Shown one piece after another: positions 9,033 through 17,883 of a DNA stretch of 49,713 nt (within the stretch, counting starts at the first letter, position 1; every line of letters begins with the position of its first letter). The DNA is from an uncultured Saprospiraceae bacterium (lineage in GTDB: Bacteria > Bacteroidota > Bacteroidia > Chitinophagales > Saprospiraceae). The stretch is from the NCBI GenBank assembly GCA_938015805.1, contig CALLXF010000030.1, positions 1 to 49,713 of the forward strand, given 5' to 3'. The position numbers and the translations under genes are program-made. Below the pieces are notes generated by a model. That model saw only the letters and a list, made by a program, of their open reading frames with translations. It made no database searches and was not told where the DNA came from.

Positions 9033-9067
9033 ATTAAAAAAGTAAACCTGCTATAACACGCTTACTT
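9033..9067 (-). terminator. Rho-independent terminator overlapping the lipoprotein stop codon
   Basis: On the minus strand an 8-bp stem (arms 9060-9067 and 9040-9047) is followed by a T-rich run. The first arm includes the TAA stop of the first lipoprotein gene. It should separate the lipoprotein cluster from the DUF3127 gene. Confidence 0.6.
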
Positions 9068-9520
9068 ACCGGCGATCATTAAAACATTACATTCTTCCTG
9101 TGTAGCCATCCAAGAAAAACTGGGGTCAGTAAAAGAAACAGAACCTGTATTACAGATATCCTCAATACAAATTGTTAATAGATTATCAACACTATCAGAA
9201 AATGAATATGTTCCTATCTCCACATCTGAGAAATCTAATACACCATCTTTCAGATAATTTATGGTTCTAGTAAAAATACCATTCTTAAACTCTGCAGTTC
9301 CATCTGTACAATGATTTATACCATTAATATCTACACAACTTATATTACCAAAGGATAGGTCAAAATTTTCCTCTATGTTAATACAATCTGATATTATTAG
9401 AGATTGTAAATTCCATAAGCCTAAAATCTTAGATGATGGACATGCATCAGTATCACACCCAGTGCCCAGAGTTAGACAGAGGAGTATTATAATAAGTGAA
9501 TGATAATTTAGATGTCTCAA
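9062..9520 (-). CDS. Cysteine-rich lipoprotein, lipocalin-like (paralogue 1 of 3)
   Basis: This protein of 152 residues starts at TTG (9518-9520), with no usable ATG near the signal sequence. The lipobox LTLGTGC indicates a lipidated Cys at residue 22. The mature part follows the pattern of its two downstream-numbered neighbours: ILGLWNLQSL, an acidic cysteine-containing segment, GTYSFSD, LLTICIEDIC, and a final EEC. Besides the lipid Cys, six cysteines occupy positions shared by all three paralogues, suggesting disulfide bonding outside the cytoplasm. The GxW start and beta-rich pattern resemble the lipocalin-like domain of Bacteroidota lipoproteins. The ligand is unknown. It is the most diverged of the three. 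Confidence 0.65.
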   Translation of the reverse strand: MRHLNYHSLIIILLCLTLGTGCDTDACPSSKILGLWNLQSLIISDCINIEENFDLSFGNISCVDINGINHCTDGTAEFKNGIFTRTINYLKDGVLDFSDVEIGTYSFSDSVDNLLTICIEDICNTGSVSFTDPSFSWMATQEECNVLMIAGK

Positions 9521-9531
9521 TGGAAAAGAAA

Positions 9532-9572
9532 AAGAATTCGATAGACATAAGAAACAAATCTATCGAATTCTT
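9532..9572 (-). terminator. Terminator between lipoprotein paralogues 2 and 1
   Basis: A perfect 14-bp inverted repeat (AAGAATTCGATAGA at 9532-9545 and its complement at 9559-9572) encloses a 13-base loop. On the minus strand it is followed by TTTTC and more T. On the plus strand it is followed by AA and nine T, so it could act in both directions. It separates paralogue 2 from paralogue 1, which therefore should have its own promoter or depend on read-through. Confidence 0.75.
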
Positions 9573-9588
9573 AATTTTTTTTTAAATC

Positions 9589-10050
9589 TTATTTCGATGC
9601 TCGTAAAGTAAATACGCAACCATCATCAGATCCTAGTAATGTCATACTAGATCCAGAAAAACTTACTATTCCTGTAACACAATCACCGAATTGGCAAATT
9701 GTAAGTTCGTTCTCATTAGTATCTGAAAAAGAGTAAGTTCCATTTCCAGTATCTGACTCTTCTACCTCACCATTTACTGTCTCAGTAAATACAGATACTA
9801 ATGTCCCTGGAGCCGTAAAACTTAGCGTAACATTTTGGCATTCTTCTTCTCCACCATTGTCTTCACAACTTGCATCTCCATAAATTTCTAGATCATTATT
9901 TATTTCGTCGTCACAATCGGAGTATTCTACTGAATCGATATTCCATGTTCCGATTACCTGATCCGCAGGTTTATCATCATCTCCACAAGATGTAAATAAA
10001 AATAATCCAAGAGCGAAAAATAATAAATTTGAAAATTTCATTGATTTCAT
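9589..10050 (-). CDS. Cysteine-rich lipoprotein, lipocalin-like (paralogue 2 of 3)
   Basis: This lipoprotein has 153 residues. The signal ends in the lipobox LFLFTSC, followed by an acidic GDDDKPAD. The lipocalin-like opening GTWNIDSVEYSDC, the central GTYSFSD and the ELTICQFGDC motif align well with paralogue 3. All six extra cysteines are present. Start choice is between codons 1 and 4 (10050 or 10041). It is flanked by the 14-bp terminator downstream and by a 27-base palindrome upstream (10120-10146), so it is likely an independent unit. Its role on the envelope is unknown. Confidence 0.72.
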   Translation of the reverse strand: MKSMKFSNLLFFALGLFLFTSCGDDDKPADQVIGTWNIDSVEYSDCDDEINNDLEIYGDASCEDNGGEEECQNVTLSFTAPGTLVSVFTETVNGEVEESDTGNGTYSFSDTNENELTICQFGDCVTGIVSFSGSSMTLLGSDDGCVFTLRASK

Positions 10051-10119
10051 TTTTAATGATTGATTTAAATTCTATTCTGATATTTTATACAACCTAATTA
10101 AACCGTTTTCCTAAACAAC

Positions 10120-10146
10120 TTTCATATTTTAAATTAAAATATGAAA
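10120..10146. repeat. 27-base AT-rich palindrome, candidate operator
   Basis: Arms at 10120-10132 and 10134-10146 are perfect complements around a single central base. There is no GC core and no adjacent T run, so an intrinsic terminator is unlikely. It sits about 70 bases before the paralogue 2 start and 37 bases after the paralogue 3 stop, which suits a dimeric regulator site or a cruciform. This is inference. Confidence 0.45.
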
Positions 10147-10182
10147 ATAATAGATGTTAGGCCTAAACAGAAAGTATACTTA

Positions 10183-10626
10183 TTACATGCCTCCAACAAT
10201 TGTAATGTTACAACCATCATTAGAATCTGTTATTGACCAGGTCATGGATTGCTCTGTTATAGATAACGAACCCTCTTCGCAGTCACCAAGAATGCAGATA
10301 GTTAAAAGGCCATTATCCGAAAAGCTATAGGTACCAGAATCTGATTCCGAACTAACAGTTTGTCCATCTTGAGTAATAAGCGTATTAAATACAGCGGTTG
10401 ATGGAGCTGTAAAAACTAAAGTCGCTGAACTACAAATAGTTGATTCAAAAATTGTATCACATTCAAAGTTTTGAATATCATTATCATCAGGATCATCACA
10501 ATTTGAGGCCGTAATGGAAGAAATATCCCATGTTCCTATAATCAATTCTTCAGATGTAGGATCATCGCCACATGAAGTAAACAGGAATAATCCAAAGACA
10601 AAAAGTAATAGTTTTGTTGGTTTCAT
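10183..10626 (-). CDS. Cysteine-rich lipoprotein, lipocalin-like (paralogue 3 of 3)
   Basis: This lipoprotein has 147 residues. The signal (MKPTKLLLFVFGLFLFTSC) is nearly identical to that of paralogue 2, including the LFLFTSC lipobox. The mature part shows IIGTWDISSITASNC, GTYSFSD, LLTICILGDC and DGC near the end, with the same cysteine pattern. The close match of signals and motifs points to tandem gene duplication. It is the first of the three in the direction of transcription. A 6-bp hairpin (10662-10676) lies 36 bases before its ATG. The ligand or partner is unknown. Confidence 0.72.
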   Translation of the reverse strand: MKPTKLLLFVFGLFLFTSCGDDPTSEELIIGTWDISSITASNCDDPDDNDIQNFECDTIFESTICSSATLVFTAPSTAVFNTLITQDGQTVSSESDSGTYSFSDNGLLTICILGDCEEGSLSITEQSMTWSITDSNDGCNITIVGGM

Positions 10627-10904: not shown

Positions 10905-12227
10905 TTAACCACCAAAATCATCAAAGGCTACGTTTTCTTCTGGAATACCCCAGTCATCAGCCATCTTAAGAACACACTGATTCATAATCGGAGGTCCACA
11001 GAAGTACAGTTCTAAATCTTCAGGAGCTTCGTGCTTACTTAGATACTCATCGATTACGACCTGGTGTACATATCCTTTAAATCCATCACCTTCTGGATCG
11101 TCGATATCTTTTTTAAGTGTCCAATTATCTTCTGGAAGTGGATTATCTAAAGCTACTGCAAAACGGAAATTAGGAAACTGTTTTTCTATTTCTCTAAATT
11201 CTTCTACGTAGAATAGTTCTTGTTTTGTACGACCTCCATAAAAGAAGGTTACCTTACGCCCAGTTTTTAAGGTGTGAAATAAGTGGTATAAATGCGATCT
11301 CATTGGAGCCATTCCCGCTCCTCCTCCTACGTATAACATCTCTGCTTCTGTAGGTTTTATAAAAAATTCGCCGTAAGGCCCTGAAATCGTTACTTTATCT
11401 CCTGGCTTACATCCAAATACATAAGAAGAACATATACCTGGATTTACATCCATCCATCCTCCCTTTGCTCTATCAAAAGGAGGTGTCGCTATCCTAATCG
11501 TCAAAGAAACGATATTCCCTTCTGCAGGGTGATTACTCATAGAATAAGCTCTGAATATCTCCTCGTCATTAACCATTTTAAGATCCCATAATTTAAACTG
11601 ATCCCAGTCTTTTTGGAATTTATCTGGTGTATCATGATACTTAGGATGAGCGGTGATATCCATATCTTTATAGTCCACAGTAGTCTTAGGAACATCGATT
11701 TGTATATAACCTCCCGCTTGGAAATCTAGATTTTCTCCTTCTGGTAATTTTACAATAAACTCCTTTATAAAAGTAGCTACATTATAATTAGAGATCACCT
11801 CACACTCCCACTTCTTAATACCAAAAATCTCCTCTGGAATACGGATATCCATATCCTCTCTAACCTTTACCTGACAAGCAAGTCTTTTATTTTCCGCTGC
11901 TTCTTTTCTGGTCATATGATCCATTTCTGTAGGAAGTATGTCTCCTCCTCCTGAATCTACGTGACACTCACACATGGCACACGTTCCTCCTCCTCCACAT
12001 GCAGATGGTAGAAACACATCTTTACCAGAAAGAGCACTTAATAGCGTCTGCCCTGGCTGAACCATCATCGGATTTTCTTCATCACCGTTTACGATGATTT
12101 TTACTTTTCCTTGAGGAATTAATTGTTTTCTAGCATAAATTAATAACATAGATAGAAGCATGATTACAAGTGTAAACGCTATCCATGCAAAGGCTATCGG
12201 TAATGCATCAAATAAAACAAAGCTCAT
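10905..12227 (-). CDS. nqrF: Na+-translocating NADH:quinone reductase subunit F
   Basis: This is the NADH-oxidising entry subunit of Na+-NQR, 440 residues, normal length. An N-terminal membrane helix (about residues 6-30) is followed by a 2Fe-2S ferredoxin domain with its cysteines in LPSACGGGGTCAMCECHV and the later LACQVKV. Next comes an FAD-binding domain (RAYSMSNHP) and an NADH domain (YVGGGAGMAPMRSHL, YFCGPPIMN). It is the last gene of nqrABCDEF, 10 bases after nqrE. Electrons pass from NADH through FAD and 2Fe-2S towards NqrD/E. Confidence 0.96.
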   Translation of the reverse strand: MSFVLFDALPIAFAWIAFTLVIMLLSMLLIYARKQLIPQGKVKIIVNGDEENPMMVQPGQTLLSALSGKDVFLPSACGGGGTCAMCECHVDSGGGDILPTEMDHMTRKEAAENKRLACQVKVREDMDIRIPEEIFGIKKWECEVISNYNVATFIKEFIVKLPEGENLDFQAGGYIQIDVPKTTVDYKDMDITAHPKYHDTPDKFQKDWDQFKLWDLKMVNDEEIFRAYSMSNHPAEGNIVSLTIRIATPPFDRAKGGWMDVNPGICSSYVFGCKPGDKVTISGPYGEFFIKPTEAEMLYVGGGAGMAPMRSHLYHLFHTLKTGRKVTFFYGGRTKQELFYVEEFREIEKQFPNFRFAVALDNPLPEDNWTLKKDIDDPEGDGFKGYVHQVVIDEYLSKHEAPEDLELYFCGPPIMNQCVLKMADDWGIPEENVAFDDFGG

Positions 12228-12237
12228 TTTTCTCTAA

Positions 12238-12840
12238 TTAAAAATTAACAAAATCAATTCCCATCAATCCCATAAATGCCATTCCCATCATACCTGTAAG
12301 TAGAAATGCCATCCCTAATCCTCTCATTGCTGGAGGTACATTAGAGTATTTTATTTTTTCTCTGATCGCTGCAATAGCTACGATCGCTACAAACCATCCA
12401 AATCCTCCTCCTAATCCAAACGCTACAGACTCTCCAAAGTTGTATTCTTTAGAAACCATAAAAAGCGAACCTCCTAAGATGGCACAGTTTACTGTAATCA
12501 ATGGTAAAAATATCCCCAGTGAATTATATAAAGCTGGAGACATTTTCTCTACTACCATCTCTACCAATTGCACCATAGAGGCGATTACTGCTATGAAGAG
12601 TATAAATCTGAGAAAAGTTAAATCCGTACTGAATACACCGTTTTCGCTGAGCAGATAAGTTTCTATCATCCAGTTTATCGGCATCGTAATACCCAGTACA
12701 AAAATTACGGCTAGTCCTAATCCGAAAGCTGTTTTTACAGATTTAGATACCGCTAGAAAAGAACACATTCCTAGGAAGTAGGCTAACGCCAAATTTTCTA
12801 TGAATGCTGATTTTATAAATATGTTAGCTAATTCGCCCAT
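12238..12840 (-). CDS. nqrE: Na+-NQR subunit E, membrane
   Basis: This is an integral membrane subunit of 200 residues with six predicted helices and the RnfA/NqrE family signature around the first and fourth helices (LAYFLGMCSFLAVSKSV, NCAILGGSLFMV). Each stretch carries one of the two Cys that, with NqrD, hold an iron centre within the membrane (Cys26 in GMCSF and Cys119 in NCAI). It lies 19 bases downstream of nqrD and 10 bases before nqrF. Confidence 0.95.
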   Translation of the reverse strand: MGELANIFIKSAFIENLALAYFLGMCSFLAVSKSVKTAFGLGLAVIFVLGITMPINWMIETYLLSENGVFSTDLTFLRFILFIAVIASMVQLVEMVVEKMSPALYNSLGIFLPLITVNCAILGGSLFMVSKEYNFGESVAFGLGGGFGWFVAIVAIAAIREKIKYSNVPPAMRGLGMAFLLTGMMGMAFMGLMGIDFVNF

Positions 12841-12859: not shown

Positions 12860-13561
12860 TTAGGAAATGTCTACCAGTTTAGGATTCCAAGCTCTATGAG
12901 CCCATATCAAAACCGCGATCACAAACATCGCCGATGGAAACTGTACCATTAAACCATTACTTACATACCAACCAAAAATATCAGAGGTTTCTGTATTTAT
13001 TGCATAGATATCTCCTGCTCCGATCAGCTTCATCCCAAATAACTCTCCTTTACCCAGAAGTTCTCTAAAAAATGCTACGATTAGTAAAATGATCCCGTAT
13101 CCGATACCATTACCCAATCCATCTAAGGCTGACTCATAAGGTCGGTTTGCCATAGCAAAAGCTTCTAAACGGCCCATTACGATACAATTAGTAATAATCA
13201 AACCTATAAAGACAGACAGTTGCTTATAACTTTCGAAAGCATACGCCTTGAGCGTAAGCTCTACCACTGTAACTAATGTTGCAATAATCACCAGTTGCAC
13301 TATCATTCTCACTTGACTCGGTATCGCCTTACGCAGAGCTGATGTAATTACATTAGATCCTACACAAACAAAAACCACGGCGACTGCCATGACCGCTGCG
13401 TTTTTCATACCTGTAGTTACTGCTAGAGCAGAACATATACCCAGTACCTGAACAGTAATCGGATTATTATCATTTAAAGGATCGGTAATTAAAGCACGTT
13501 CCTTTTTTCCGAATGAAATGGGTGTTGCCACCTTTTTTTCTAAAACTTGTGTTTCTGCCAT
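12860..13561 (-). CDS. nqrD: Na+-NQR subunit D, membrane
   Basis: This is an integral membrane subunit of 233 residues, homologous to NqrE and RnfE, with about six helices. Conserved cysteines lie in QVLGICSALAV and LIITNCIVMGRLEAFAM, matching the intramembrane iron site shared with NqrE. It starts with a somewhat long polar N terminus (about 25 residues) before DPLNDNNPITVQVLG. It is the fourth gene of the operon, 20 bases after nqrC. Confidence 0.95.
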   Translation of the reverse strand: MAETQVLEKKVATPISFGKKERALITDPLNDNNPITVQVLGICSALAVTTGMKNAAVMAVAVVFVCVGSNVITSALRKAIPSQVRMIVQLVIIATLVTVVELTLKAYAFESYKQLSVFIGLIITNCIVMGRLEAFAMANRPYESALDGLGNGIGYGIILLIVAFFRELLGKGELFGMKLIGAGDIYAINTETSDIFGWYVSNGLMVQFPSAMFVIAVLIWAHRAWNPKLVDIS

Positions 13562-13581: not shown

Positions 13582-14322
13582 TTAAATAGATTTTAAGTAC
13601 GGTTCGTAATATTTTAATCCTCTCTTTAACATCTCACTTACTCCATTTGCTGTAATCGTTGCTCCAGAGATTCCATCAACCTCATAGTCAGGATCTTTTG
13701 CTCCACCTTTACGAACGTAAACGGAAGTATAGTTTCCTTGCTCATCGTATATTTTAGTACCTGTAAATTGCTTTACCCAGGTCTTATTATCTTTTATCTC
13801 CGCACCTAAACCAGGCGTCTCAGCTTTATGATCAAATGATACACCAGCTAGAGTTCTGAGATCAGACTCTACTGCTACACAACCCCATATAACATCCCAT
13901 AATCCCTTACCTGTAGCTGATAAAATATAAAATTTATCACCTGATTTTTTCTTATAAATAAAGAGTGGTAAAACTCTCTCAGACTCAGGTTTTTTCATTT
14001 CTTTGAGAATATCAACATTTTCTGCCTGACCCCCAGCATATCCAAGTGCCTCTACTTCCTCTTTTGTTAATTCGGTGCCGTCCATCCTTAATACTTTCTG
14101 CTCCACCTGGTTAGAAAAAATATCATCTACCTGATCATTATTTATAGAAGCATAATCCATATCTAAATGTTGAGAAACTGCTCCTAGTGTTGCTTTTTTG
14201 GCATAAAGCAAGGCATTATCTTTACTTCTCTGTGCCCATGCAGAAGACAAAAAAGCCAGTAGTAATGATACTACAGTGGTCATGATGAGGACAAATATTA
14301 CGATTGATCTTGTACTATGCAT
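13582..14322 (-). CDS. nqrC: Na+-NQR subunit C, covalent FMN
   Basis: This subunit of 246 residues has an N-terminal membrane anchor (about residues 7-28) and a periplasmic FMN-binding domain. The flavinylation motif SGATIT (in VDGISGATITANG) provides the Thr that carries covalent FMN, attached by ApbE. No apbE gene is in this window. Its start overlaps the end of nqrB by 8 bases, indicating translational coupling in the operon. Confidence 0.95.
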   Translation of the reverse strand: MHSTRSIVIFVLIMTTVVSLLLAFLSSAWAQRSKDNALLYAKKATLGAVSQHLDMDYASINNDQVDDIFSNQVEQKVLRMDGTELTKEEVEALGYAGGQAENVDILKEMKKPESERVLPLFIYKKKSGDKFYILSATGKGLWDVIWGCVAVESDLRTLAGVSFDHKAETPGLGAEIKDNKTWVKQFTGTKIYDEQGNYTSVYVRKGGAKDPDYEVDGISGATITANGVSEMLKRGLKYYEPYLKSI

Positions 14323-15565
14323 TGACTACTCTTTTTTTCATGTTAGCCTCTAAGACATAGTAGTCTATGAGGGGTACAAATGTATTCATGAATAATATCG
14401 CTAGCATCCATCCTTCTGGATAACCAGGATTAAATACTCTTATCAGTAAACCTATAATTCCTATGGCAAAACCATAGATGTATTTCCCGATATTGGTCGA
14501 TGATGCAGTTACTGGATCAGTAGCCATAAAAACCATCGCAAATAGGAAACTTCCTATATAAAAGTGGTAATACCATGGAACGGACATAAATGCATTGGCA
14601 TCCCAAGCATTAAACCCTAAACCCATAACCGCACATCCGATGATCATCCCGATCATTACTCTCCAACTCGCAATACCTGTAGCTAATAATATTAAACCAC
14701 CAAGTAGTATTAAAGGTTTAGAGGTTTCTCCTATAGAACCAGGGATTGTTCCCCAGAACATTTGAGCGACAGAAAACTGTTCGGTAACAGCGGTCCATCC
14801 TCCCTTAGTGGCTAGTCCCATCGGTGTTGCACCACTATAGGCATCTGCTACGACCGTTCCGACCTGGAACTTTGCGACATCCATCCACTCAAATACTGTA
14901 TTAAATAAACCTGTATGCCACCAGCTATAATCAACTGACATTCCAGGAGCTAATTTCTCATACCCTGATACCCATACTTCGTCACCAGATATTGTACCTG
15001 GATAAGCAAAGAATACAAATACTCTTGCAAGTAAAGCGATGTTCCAGATATTCATACCAGTACCACCAAAAGCTTCTTTACCTAGAATAACTGCGAAGGC
15101 TACTGATAACCCCAGTATCCATAAAGGAATATCAGGTGGCATGATCAATGGAATCAGTGCTCCAGAAACAAGGTATCCTTCTTCAACAGCGTGACCTTTC
15201 TTAGCAGCGAAAATAAACTCGATCCCTAAACCAACAACATTAGCAACTATAAAAATAGGTAGTAATTTTATCAGTCCGTGAGCTAGCTTTAGGTGAAAAC
15301 CCTCTAATATGCCAAGATATTGACCTGCAGCTACAAAATGCTGATGACCTATATTATAGGTACCAAACAAATAACAAAACTGCATGGCAATAACTACCAT
15401 CACCATTGTTCTTTTAAGATCCATACCATCTCTGATATGCACCCCACCTTTAGTCACTGAGTCTGGTGAAAACAGAAAAGTAAAAAAGGCATCGTATGTA
15501 GTATGTAGATAGGGACTTTTCTTTTTGTCCGGTTCTATCTTCTTAAAGAATTCTAATAATCCCAT
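14315..15565 (-). CDS. nqrB: Na+-NQR subunit B, membrane, covalent FMN and riboflavin
   Basis: This is a large membrane subunit of 416 residues with about ten helices, the main candidate for the Na+ path. Family hallmarks are LLEFFKKIEP at the N terminus, AKKGHAVEEGYLVSGALIPLIMP, and the covalent FMN site in DAYSGATPMGLA. The C-terminal half holds the quinone and riboflavin region. It lies 9 bases after nqrA and overlaps nqrC by 8 bases. Confidence 0.96.
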   Translation of the reverse strand: MGLLEFFKKIEPDKKKSPYLHTTYDAFFTFLFSPDSVTKGGVHIRDGMDLKRTMVMVVIAMQFCYLFGTYNIGHQHFVAAGQYLGILEGFHLKLAHGLIKLLPIFIVANVVGLGIEFIFAAKKGHAVEEGYLVSGALIPLIMPPDIPLWILGLSVAFAVILGKEAFGGTGMNIWNIALLARVFVFFAYPGTISGDEVWVSGYEKLAPGMSVDYSWWHTGLFNTVFEWMDVAKFQVGTVVADAYSGATPMGLATKGGWTAVTEQFSVAQMFWGTIPGSIGETSKPLILLGGLILLATGIASWRVMIGMIIGCAVMGLGFNAWDANAFMSVPWYYHFYIGSFLFAMVFMATDPVTASSTNIGKYIYGFAIGIIGLLIRVFNPGYPEGWMLAILFMNTFVPLIDYYVLEANMKKRVVNA

Positions 15566-15574
15566 TTGCTATTT

Positions 15575-17191
15575 TTAAGATTGTTCTCTCATCATATCCA
15601 GCCCTTTACGTAATATCGATTGTAAAGGTTGTTTAGATGTACAAACAAATTCGCAAAGAGCTACATCTTCTTCTGATAGCTCATTTATTCCTAATCCTTC
15701 CATTCTTTCGATATCATTTGCAAGAATGGCTTTCATTAAATGCTGAGGAAATACATCCATCGGCAAAACTTTTTCGTATTGTCCAGAAACTACAAAAGCA
15801 CGTTTTTCTCCGTGCGTATTAGTATCGGCTTCGTATTTAAAATCTGGCATTAAAAACCCCGGTAAGGTCTTAGATAAACTCGGTCGCGGAGATAATGGTA
15901 ATAACCACCCAAACATCTCATTATAATTTCCTTCTGCTAATGTCGTAATTTGATCATCCCCATAATTTAAGAAATCATCCATAGTAACTGCCTGGCCTGT
16001 AAGCACATCTCCAGCAACAATTCTCATATTAGGGTCACTCATGTTTGCTTTGAGCAAATCTCCTATATGAGCACCGACATGAGTTGCTACATATCTAGGT
16101 TCTGCTATTCCAGCCCCTGTTAAAGCTACTTTTCTGGATAAGTCCACTTTTCCATTTAGAAAGAAACCTCCTATAGTTGCTACTTCCTGAACACCTACTG
16201 TCCACACTGTTTCTTTTCTGATCGGTGACGTATGGTGTATCTGTACCCCTACATTACCCGCTGGATGCTTACCGCTAAAATAATTTATTTCTACACCGGT
16301 AGCATTTGCAAAAGCCGATGCAGGTTTATTATTACCGTCTAATCCTAAGAATACTTTTCCTACAGTAAGTTTGTTTAAAACATCTAATCCTTTTTGAAAA
16401 GCTTCCTCTTTTCCTTCTATTAATATATTATGATCAGGAGCTAGAGGTGCTGTATCGAAGGTGGAGATAAAAATATTAGCTGGAATATCATCGATACCTG
16501 GAATGATATCAAAAGGTCTTTGGTTTAGTAAAGTCCATAAACCCGAACCAATCATAGCGTCTCTAATATCATCTCGATTACAATTTTCTATCTTAGGAAA
16601 ATCATACACCTCGTAATCCATCATTTTATCAGCCAGGATAATCACCTCAGTTATTGCTCTTTTAGCTCCTCTTCTTACTTCTACAATTTCTCCACTTACT
16701 GGAGAAACATACTTAACATCTGGATTTTTCTTGTCAAAAAAGATAACCTCACCAGCCTTTACCTCATCTCCTTGTGCAACAATTACCTTAGGAATCGGAG
16801 AGTTTCCTCTAAAATTTGGTGGCTTGATAGCAAACCTAGTGACGCCTATATTGTGATCTACTGTATCGGATGCTTCTCCTTTTAATTTAATGTCAAAACC
16901 CTTCTTAAGTTTATGGAATTTACCTTTTACAAAAGATGGAGCTTTAGGGGCTGTGATACTTCCTAATTTTGGGAATATCCCGATATCACTTTTCTCAGTA
17001 TCAATTCCTGATTTTTCAGCTTCGATTTTAAGTAAATTATCTGATAAAGATGTTACTACCCAGAGTAATAAAAATAGACCTACTGCCATGAGGGCGTAGA
17101 GCGTTACATTACTAGCACCGGAAGACTGCGCAAAGGAAAATTGAGAGAGAAAAAGAAGTGAAAAAAGGATAGTTAACTTCTTTATTTTCAA
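15575..17191 (-). CDS. nqrA: Na+-NQR subunit A with N-terminal signal peptide and membrane anchor
   Basis: This is the quinone-binding subunit, 538 residues from the TTG chosen at 17191, about 90 longer than the usual 445. Residues 1-22 form a signal peptide (KIKKLTILFSLLFLSQFSFAQ after the start). Residues 30-48 are a membrane helix (LYALMAVGLFLLLWVVTS). A linker then leads to the classical NqrA start KLKKGFDIKLKG at about residue 94. From there the protein looks normal (Rnf barrel-sandwich and SLBB-like parts). A longer frame from GTG at 17257 is possible, but a TATCTTTG box at 17223-17230 lies inside it. Canonical NqrA is peripheral, so the anchor is unusual. It is the first gene of the operon. 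Confidence 0.9.
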   Translation of the reverse strand: MKIKKLTILFSLLFLSQFSFAQSSGASNVTLYALMAVGLFLLLWVVTSLSDNLLKIEAEKSGIDTEKSDIGIFPKLGSITAPKAPSFVKGKFHKLKKGFDIKLKGEASDTVDHNIGVTRFAIKPPNFRGNSPIPKVIVAQGDEVKAGEVIFFDKKNPDVKYVSPVSGEIVEVRRGAKRAITEVIILADKMMDYEVYDFPKIENCNRDDIRDAMIGSGLWTLLNQRPFDIIPGIDDIPANIFISTFDTAPLAPDHNILIEGKEEAFQKGLDVLNKLTVGKVFLGLDGNNKPASAFANATGVEINYFSGKHPAGNVGVQIHHTSPIRKETVWTVGVQEVATIGGFFLNGKVDLSRKVALTGAGIAEPRYVATHVGAHIGDLLKANMSDPNMRIVAGDVLTGQAVTMDDFLNYGDDQITTLAEGNYNEMFGWLLPLSPRPSLSKTLPGFLMPDFKYEADTNTHGEKRAFVVSGQYEKVLPMDVFPQHLMKAILANDIERMEGLGINELSEEDVALCEFVCTSKQPLQSILRKGLDMMREQS

Positions 17192-17222: not shown

Positions 17223-17230
17223 CAAAGATA
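17223..17230 (-). promoter_or_regulatory. Candidate -7 promoter box for the nqr operon
   Basis: The minus strand reads TATCTTTG, an exact TAnnTTTG match. The transcript would start near 17216, about 25 bases before the TTG start at 17191, and would exclude the GTG at 17257. The -33 region is poor. Confidence 0.5.
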
Positions 17231-17286: not shown

Positions 17287-17883
17287 TTAGACTGATTCTA
17301 GATAAATCCTTTTCCAGTTAAACCAGCTCGGAATGGCAATCAAAATATAGATCATCATCATCATTACAAAAACATAAGCCCCTTGACTATAATAGATATA
17401 GATGTATAATAGGTCGGCTATAATAAAGATGATCCAGTTTTCGATCTTACGATAGACGAGTAAAAATGTTCCTATGACAGAATATACTGTGGTGAAAATA
17501 TCCAGAAAAGTACGGCTCGATTCTATAAATCTCTCAGCCCACAAATAAATCAAAAGAACGACAATAAATCCTCCAAATATCCAAATCAAATTTTGCTTTA
17601 AACTAAGGTAAGATATCGGTTTAGTGCTATTATTATTGCCTCCGTATTTCCAAATGTAGAGACCATAAAAGCTCATTAGACCATAAAAGACCTGTAGACT
17701 TCCGTCAAATTTTAAATTTAGTATCTGGTAGGAATAATACGCCCATAACACAGAACTCAATAATCCAAAAACGAAACAAAGAGGTAAGTTTTTATAAGCT
17801 AAATATATGTAGATCAGGGCAAATAAGGACGCCATCCATTCGAGGAGGCTGGTAGATTGCAGTTGAGTAATAAATTCGCTCAA
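17287..17883 (-). CDS. pnuC: Nicotinamide riboside/mononucleotide transporter PnuC family
   Basis: This is an inner-membrane transporter of 198 residues with about seven helices. PnuC hallmarks are WMASLFALIYIYLAYKN, then FGLLSSVLWAYYSYQ with the aromatic-rich substrate region, LQVFYGLMSFYGLYIWKYG, and the C-terminal IFIIADLLYIYIYYSQGAY. Family members import nicotinamide riboside by facilitated diffusion for NAD synthesis. Some relatives carry thiamine or riboflavin, so the substrate is inferred. It lies 5 bases after the DUF1573 gene and upstream of the NADH-using nqr operon, from which it is separated by a promoter. Confidence 0.85.
   Translation of the reverse strand: MSEFITQLQSTSLLEWMASLFALIYIYLAYKNLPLCFVFGLLSSVLWAYYSYQILNLKFDGSLQVFYGLMSFYGLYIWKYGGNNNSTKPISYLSLKQNLIWIFGGFIVVLLIYLWAERFIESSRTFLDIFTTVYSVIGTFLLVYRKIENWIIFIIADLLYIYIYYSQGAYVFVMMMMIYILIAIPSWFNWKRIYLESV

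Follow-up and report, generated by a model that had tools for sequence, protein, structure and literature searches.

In V. cholerae, the accessible sections of two papers describe NqrA as having no transmembrane helix (PMC9325719, PMC10643135), and a third, in the part available, describes it as cytosolic and without transmembrane segments (PMC4014512). According to the available text of PMC9325719, NqrA residues 330–379 intertwine with NqrB residues 34–53, while a basic patch of R40, K61, K62, K84, and R85 binds NqrF. Among the best-ranked matches of the literature searched, which include few subscription papers, nothing on an NqrA with an anchor or a signal peptide was found. The NqrA described here appears to be such a protein and, judging from its sequence, a new form of a known enzyme subunit.

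I analysed a 49,713-nucleotide stretch of DNA from an uncultured Saprospiraceae bacterium, hereafter called the window. Its nqrA gene lies on the minus strand (15575–17191) as a single open frame of 538 residues, from a TTG start codon (17191–17189) to the stop codon (15577–15575), an assignment based on relatives and on a tree. It is the first gene in the order nqrABCDEF, by gene order alone a putative operon, and is followed on the same strand by nqrB (14315–15565), whose product keeps its N-terminal arm, nqrC (13582–14322), nqrD (12860–13561), nqrE (12238–12840), and nqrF (10905–12227), all assigned by sequence models. A gene for a PnuC-type nicotinamide riboside transporter (17287–17883, minus strand) is located directly upstream. 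Downstream of nqrF, three small, similarly built ORFs lie in tandem (9062–10626, minus strand). Two or three of them have lipoprotein-like starts; in a search against Pfam, one passes the Lipocalin_4 cut-off, another falls slightly short of it, and the third has no match.

Residues 94–538 of the protein (15578–16912, minus strand) form the NqrA core, as judged by Pfam, sequence models, alignment, and Foldseek. The models TIGR01936 (435.6 bits against a cut-off of 321.05; residues 94–535) and NF003761 (502.3 bits against 450; residues 94–536) match above their curated cut-offs, and the Pfam domains NQRA_N (94–187), NQRA_2nd (205–349), and NQRA_SLBB (355–402) are all present in this order. Since these models match from about residue 94 and residue 4 of V. 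cholerae NqrA (7xk3_A) aligns with residue 95, about 93 residues lie ahead of the canonical start. An earlier reading made by a model from the letters and their open reading frames (hereafter, the sequence-only reading) had proposed about 90, and had put the core start at a KKGLDI motif; the position holds, while the exact letters are LKKGFDI. The AlphaFold2 model, built for NqrA alone as a single chain, has a mean pLDDT of 91.3 (77 sequences), and its best solved matches in Foldseek are the V. cholerae NqrA structures 8a1y_A and 7xk3_A (TM-score 0.93 by target, 35–36% identity). By this model and its match to 8a1y_A, the protein has the NqrA fold. It differs from the description of V. cholerae NqrA as a protein without a transmembrane segment by a predicted helix at residues 29–49. 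The sequence models for NqrA do not demand that a helix be absent, and the helix is the difference claimed here.

Read from the TTG codon along the minus strand, the extension begins with a signal peptide (residues 1–21, 17129–17191) that ends in FA before Q22 and is assigned from relatives, the conservation of Q22, and the codon pattern. It is followed by a short uncharged tail, QSSGASN (residues 22–28, 17108–17128), expected to be periplasmic, and by a transmembrane helix (residues 29–49, 17045–17107), identified by hydropathy and AlphaFold2 and expected to run N-out/C-in. A juxtamembrane motif, DNLLxIEAxxxGxD (residues 51–64, 17000–17041; its conservation assessed over 51 sequences), and a linker with P74 and P85 (residues 65–93, 16913–16999; defined by conservation and spacing) lead to the core.

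The extension is coding and conserved. Its pN/pS is 0.18–0.54 in all of 12 pairs, several of which have a member in common; the core gives 0.07–0.31 in the same pairs, and the extension value is the higher one in 11 of the 12. In 10 pairs, the differences at the first, second, and third codon positions are 0.30/0.15/0.37 for the signal peptide, 0.26/0.17/0.58 for the helix and linker, and 0.20/0.12/0.53 for the core; in the 60 nucleotides upstream of the start, they are 0.29/0.27/0.29 (nine of the same pairs; a contig end truncates the tenth). The sequence-only reading had raised the possibility of a frame error that close relatives would reveal. In the relatives, the extension is present, conserved, and evolves as coding sequence, and a frame error is ruled out by the helix in relatives, the purifying pN/pS, and the codon-position pattern. 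Chance open frames ahead of the core were also considered and rejected: the 711-residue frame of G874, from another phylum, has no signal peptide or anchor helix near the core when inspected by eye, and the 82 residues upstream of the core in L109 contain no helix. Nor does the extension appear to be a module reused in the genome. A profile of the helix and linker (A3, 20 rows) matched only NqrA in its own genome at E values up to 10.

Is the extension translated in the window organism? Translation might begin downstream, at Met35 or near residue 94, so that the extension would not be made there. Met35 is in frame, and TTG is generally a weaker start codon. However, the codon-position pattern of the relatives begins at the assigned start, the purifying selection on the extension includes the comparison of the window gene with that of L024 from the same genus, and L024 likewise carries a TTG at the corresponding position. 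A promoter-like box also stands just upstream of the TTG, and a downstream start is hardly credible. The box, TATCTTTG (17223–17230, minus strand), has its first base 39 nucleotides before the TTG, and I take it to be the Bacteroidota-type −7 promoter box TAnnTTTG. Of 51 extended genes, 39 have this motif no more than 90 nucleotides from the assigned start, while 500 base shuffles gave a mean of 3.15 and a maximum of 8. A scan for sigma-70-type promoters found sites no commoner than in its shuffles. Both codon statistics and conservation in relatives thus support the start at 17191 proposed by the sequence-only reading, and the box that it had located at 17223–17230 is confirmed. Of 52 extended nqrA genes, 14 have TTG as the assigned start, as against none of 45 unextended ones; these starts were hand-chosen, with ATG preferred in the unextended genes. 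The starts of extended relatives were hand-picked among candidates, and for the other genes a script took the nearest-fitting ATG first.

According to the available part of PMC5837995, a Gln at the mature end is expected of signal peptidase I substrates in Bacteroidota (the Q-rule). In the window NqrA, Gln directly follows the small-residue site (FA^Q), and 94% of 49 aligned sequences have Gln in the column of Q22. With scoring that prefers Gln, 46 of 47 extended sequences offer a site in which Gln follows a small residue; without this preference, 31 of 47 have Gln at +1, compared with a background Gln content of 3.1%. Cleavage is thus predicted before Gln22, and the mature end of NqrA may carry pyroglutamate. 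The signal peptide of the sequence-only reading is borne out by its retention in relatives and by codon statistics, whereas its end, given there as FAQ, has to be shifted; the predicted cut A21^Q22 makes Gln the first mature residue and not the last residue of the signal peptide. The helix of that reading is likewise supported, with a span other than the 30–48 stated. AlphaFold2 places helices at residues 3–22 and 29–60 (pLDDT block means of 85–90 for residues 31–60), and the hydrophobic part of the latter is about 29–49. The Kyte-Doolittle mean of the window helix is 2.31 over 19 residues, and helix hydropathy is 1.9–3.5 in 52 of 52 extended sequences.

These two predicted helices, with a tail of just seven residues between them, would also suit an uncut signal peptide whose hydrophobic part pairs with residues 29–49 as a two-helix hairpin, leaving both ends in the cytoplasm. 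The Gln at +1 after a small residue, as found at Q22, fits a signal peptidase I site instead, and the second helix persists in several lineages that lack the first, so that the hairpin is distinctly unlikely. For the cleaved protein, the predicted topology is N-out/C-in with a cytoplasmic core. The residues that follow the helix, SDNLLKIEAEKSGIDTEKSD, carry no clear positive charge, and thus the main ground for this topology is the signal peptide, and less so the positive-inside rule.

Which part of the extension is the most constant? The letters of the helix are poorly conserved across the aligned extensions. After the helix, D51 (80%), E57 (76%), A58 (86%), and G62 (90%) are conserved among 51 sequences, and P74 (96%) and P85 (72%) among 50. 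The spacing from the 19-residue helix core to the NqrA core is 42–48 residues in 48 of 52 relatives. A signal peptide is absent in 14 of the 57 helix-bearing genomes of the window's family, f1 (L017, L030, L066, L067, L117, L118, L120–L125, L138, and L147). L017, L030, L066, L067, and L085 represent four separate places in the tree where the helix is kept without a signal peptide, and inspection by eye of their other upstream frames found no signal peptide. L116, L119, and L139 have a signal peptide and a helix with a short linker, while L017, L120, and L125 have the helix with no post-helix motif. The helix is therefore the most constant element of the extension, being kept where the signal peptide, the full linker, or the motif is missing.

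Of the 65 f1 genomes read, 57 have a helix ahead of NqrA. The first sample consisted of 37 genomes with NqrA, of which G015 (masked) and G016 (contig end) were unreadable; the helix was found in all 35 genomes with a readable 5′ end. In the second sample of 30, of which 25 were picked for relatively short frames or partial genes and five had long frames, 22 have the helix and eight (L108–L115) have none. Absence in eight of 65 genomes indicates that the anchor is dispensable. When the first residues of these eight NqrAs were compared with five queries, the best match was a query from another family of the order for L108–L112 and the window for L113–L115. Some of the helix-less genes may be replacements and others losses. 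At E values up to 0.01, profile A3 matched 111 of 150 f1 genomes, 110 of them directly upstream of NqrA (contig and position compared by eye); G456 has its match, a weak one, elsewhere (G456:C146), and G450 has a second, also weak (G450:C24). A search of 395 genomes of the phylum with the profile gave five f1 members and a weak match in G135 (E = 0.0037). The profile undercounts, since it missed G219, a helix carrier when read.

In other families of the order, a helix before NqrA was found in f5 (L018, L135), f10 (L065), f13 (L005), f21 (L133, L134), f70 (L128–L131), and f18 (L136, a partial gene). No helix was found in the NqrAs read from f2, f6, f9, f11, f12, f14, and f17 or in one from f70 (L132); further f12 genes were judged by their short frames alone. 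Outside the order, 48 NqrAs of the phylum exceeded the cut-off. The 34 loci read among them (L031–L060, L077–L080) have no helix, and the other 14 are frames of 451–476 residues, too short for the extension. Among 240 genomes of another phylum, that of G700, the 36 NqrAs over the cut-off show no sign of the extension, 35 being frames of 438–496 residues and G874 being the one long frame. Among 26 named loci, 16 have the extension; the title is Saprospiraceae for 15 of these and 'Bacteroidetes bacterium' for the remaining one. Some named loci are apparently the same genomes as others (L088/L030, L093/L067, L096/L002, L085/L118, and L081/L144). The NqrA tree (95 rows, quick method) needs three label changes, and its well-supported branches force only one, so the anchor may have a single origin. 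The protein set omits L041, L057, L059, L076, L088, L093, L096, L100, and L103 (near-copies, masked sequences, or no clear start), and the tree omits the partial genes L074 and L075.

Does the anchor change docking on NqrB, as the sequence-only reading had supposed? The NqrB-docking stretch aligns with that of V. cholerae without gaps, although it is not identical. Four of the five residues of the NqrF-binding patch are kept in the alignment (K61, K62, K84, and R85 correspond to K154, K155, K177, and R178), R40 being the one not kept. In the anchored rows in which DLKR was found, the NqrB arm retains its length of 48–50 residues before DLKR, except in L101 (37 residues). These results do not bear out the supposed change and suit an added tether better, and a shorter NqrB arm as compensation was not seen. 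With the docking regions largely kept, the most likely role of the anchor is that of an additional type I tether and not of a substitute for docking. At an identity of 0.6–0.7 in the next part of NqrB, residues 1–30 of NqrB (14315–15565, minus strand) have an identity of 0.59 in the anchored group and 0.39 in the others. This is only a hint of slower evolution in the anchored group, and it is confounded by the kinship of the groups. In V. cholerae, the available text of PMC9325719 reports inhibitors bound at the N-terminal arm of NqrB and a quinone head group labelled on NqrA near that arm. It is conceivable, though quite doubtful, that the anchor forms an additional, integral helix of the pump, with its conserved juxtamembrane segment packed on the NqrB arm, and helps to shape or gate the quinone site in this family.

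Alternatively, the anchor could be nearly neutral, an addition fixed in an ancestor that does nothing beyond canonical docking. The eight helix-less f1 genomes, the poorly conserved helix letters, and the retention of most docking residues examined are in line with it, while retention across most of a diverse family, the conservation of D51, E57, A58, G62, and P74 after the helix, and the persistence of the helix in the 14 genomes without a signal peptide are not. A neutral anchor is possible but rather improbable. A functional tether is probable: NqrA would be a signal-peptide-led type I membrane protein with a cytoplasmic core that docks normally, and the anchor would aid assembly or retention. 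The signal peptide would insert via Sec and be cut by signal peptidase I before Gln22, and the following helix would act as a stop-transfer segment, so that the core would remain cytoplasmic, tethered by about 43 residues. The core would then dock on NqrB and NqrF as usual, while the added helix would hold it at the membrane and help the NADH-oxidising arm to assemble and to stay in place. A gain in assembly or stability is presumed from the anchor, and for the conserved juxtamembrane segment, specific binding to the complex or to the membrane surface is probable.

NqrA is elsewhere described as a hydrophilic, helix-less subunit held through NqrB contacts, and the anchor would fix it at the membrane next to the other subunits of the sodium pump. 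An apparently exported and anchored NqrA thus offers a natural test of what the NqrB contacts must do, for which relatives without the signal peptide, with a short linker, or without any anchor are available. The window NqrA shares with canonical V. cholerae NqrA (7xk3, 8a1y) the core fold and sequence, the nqrA-first gene order, and largely kept docking regions; in contrast to that protein, helix-less in the available descriptions, it adds a signal peptide, a helix, and a linker. RnfC of the Rnf complex, a distant NqrA homologue, supplies the next-best Foldseek chains after NqrA. In the available text of PMC10643135, NqrF and NqrC are hydrophilic subunits held by a single helix, as the anchored NqrA would be, and the NqrF domain is cytoplasmic, as expected for the window NqrA core. 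Unlike in NqrF and NqrC, the orientation of the window NqrA is apparently set by a cleavable signal peptide.
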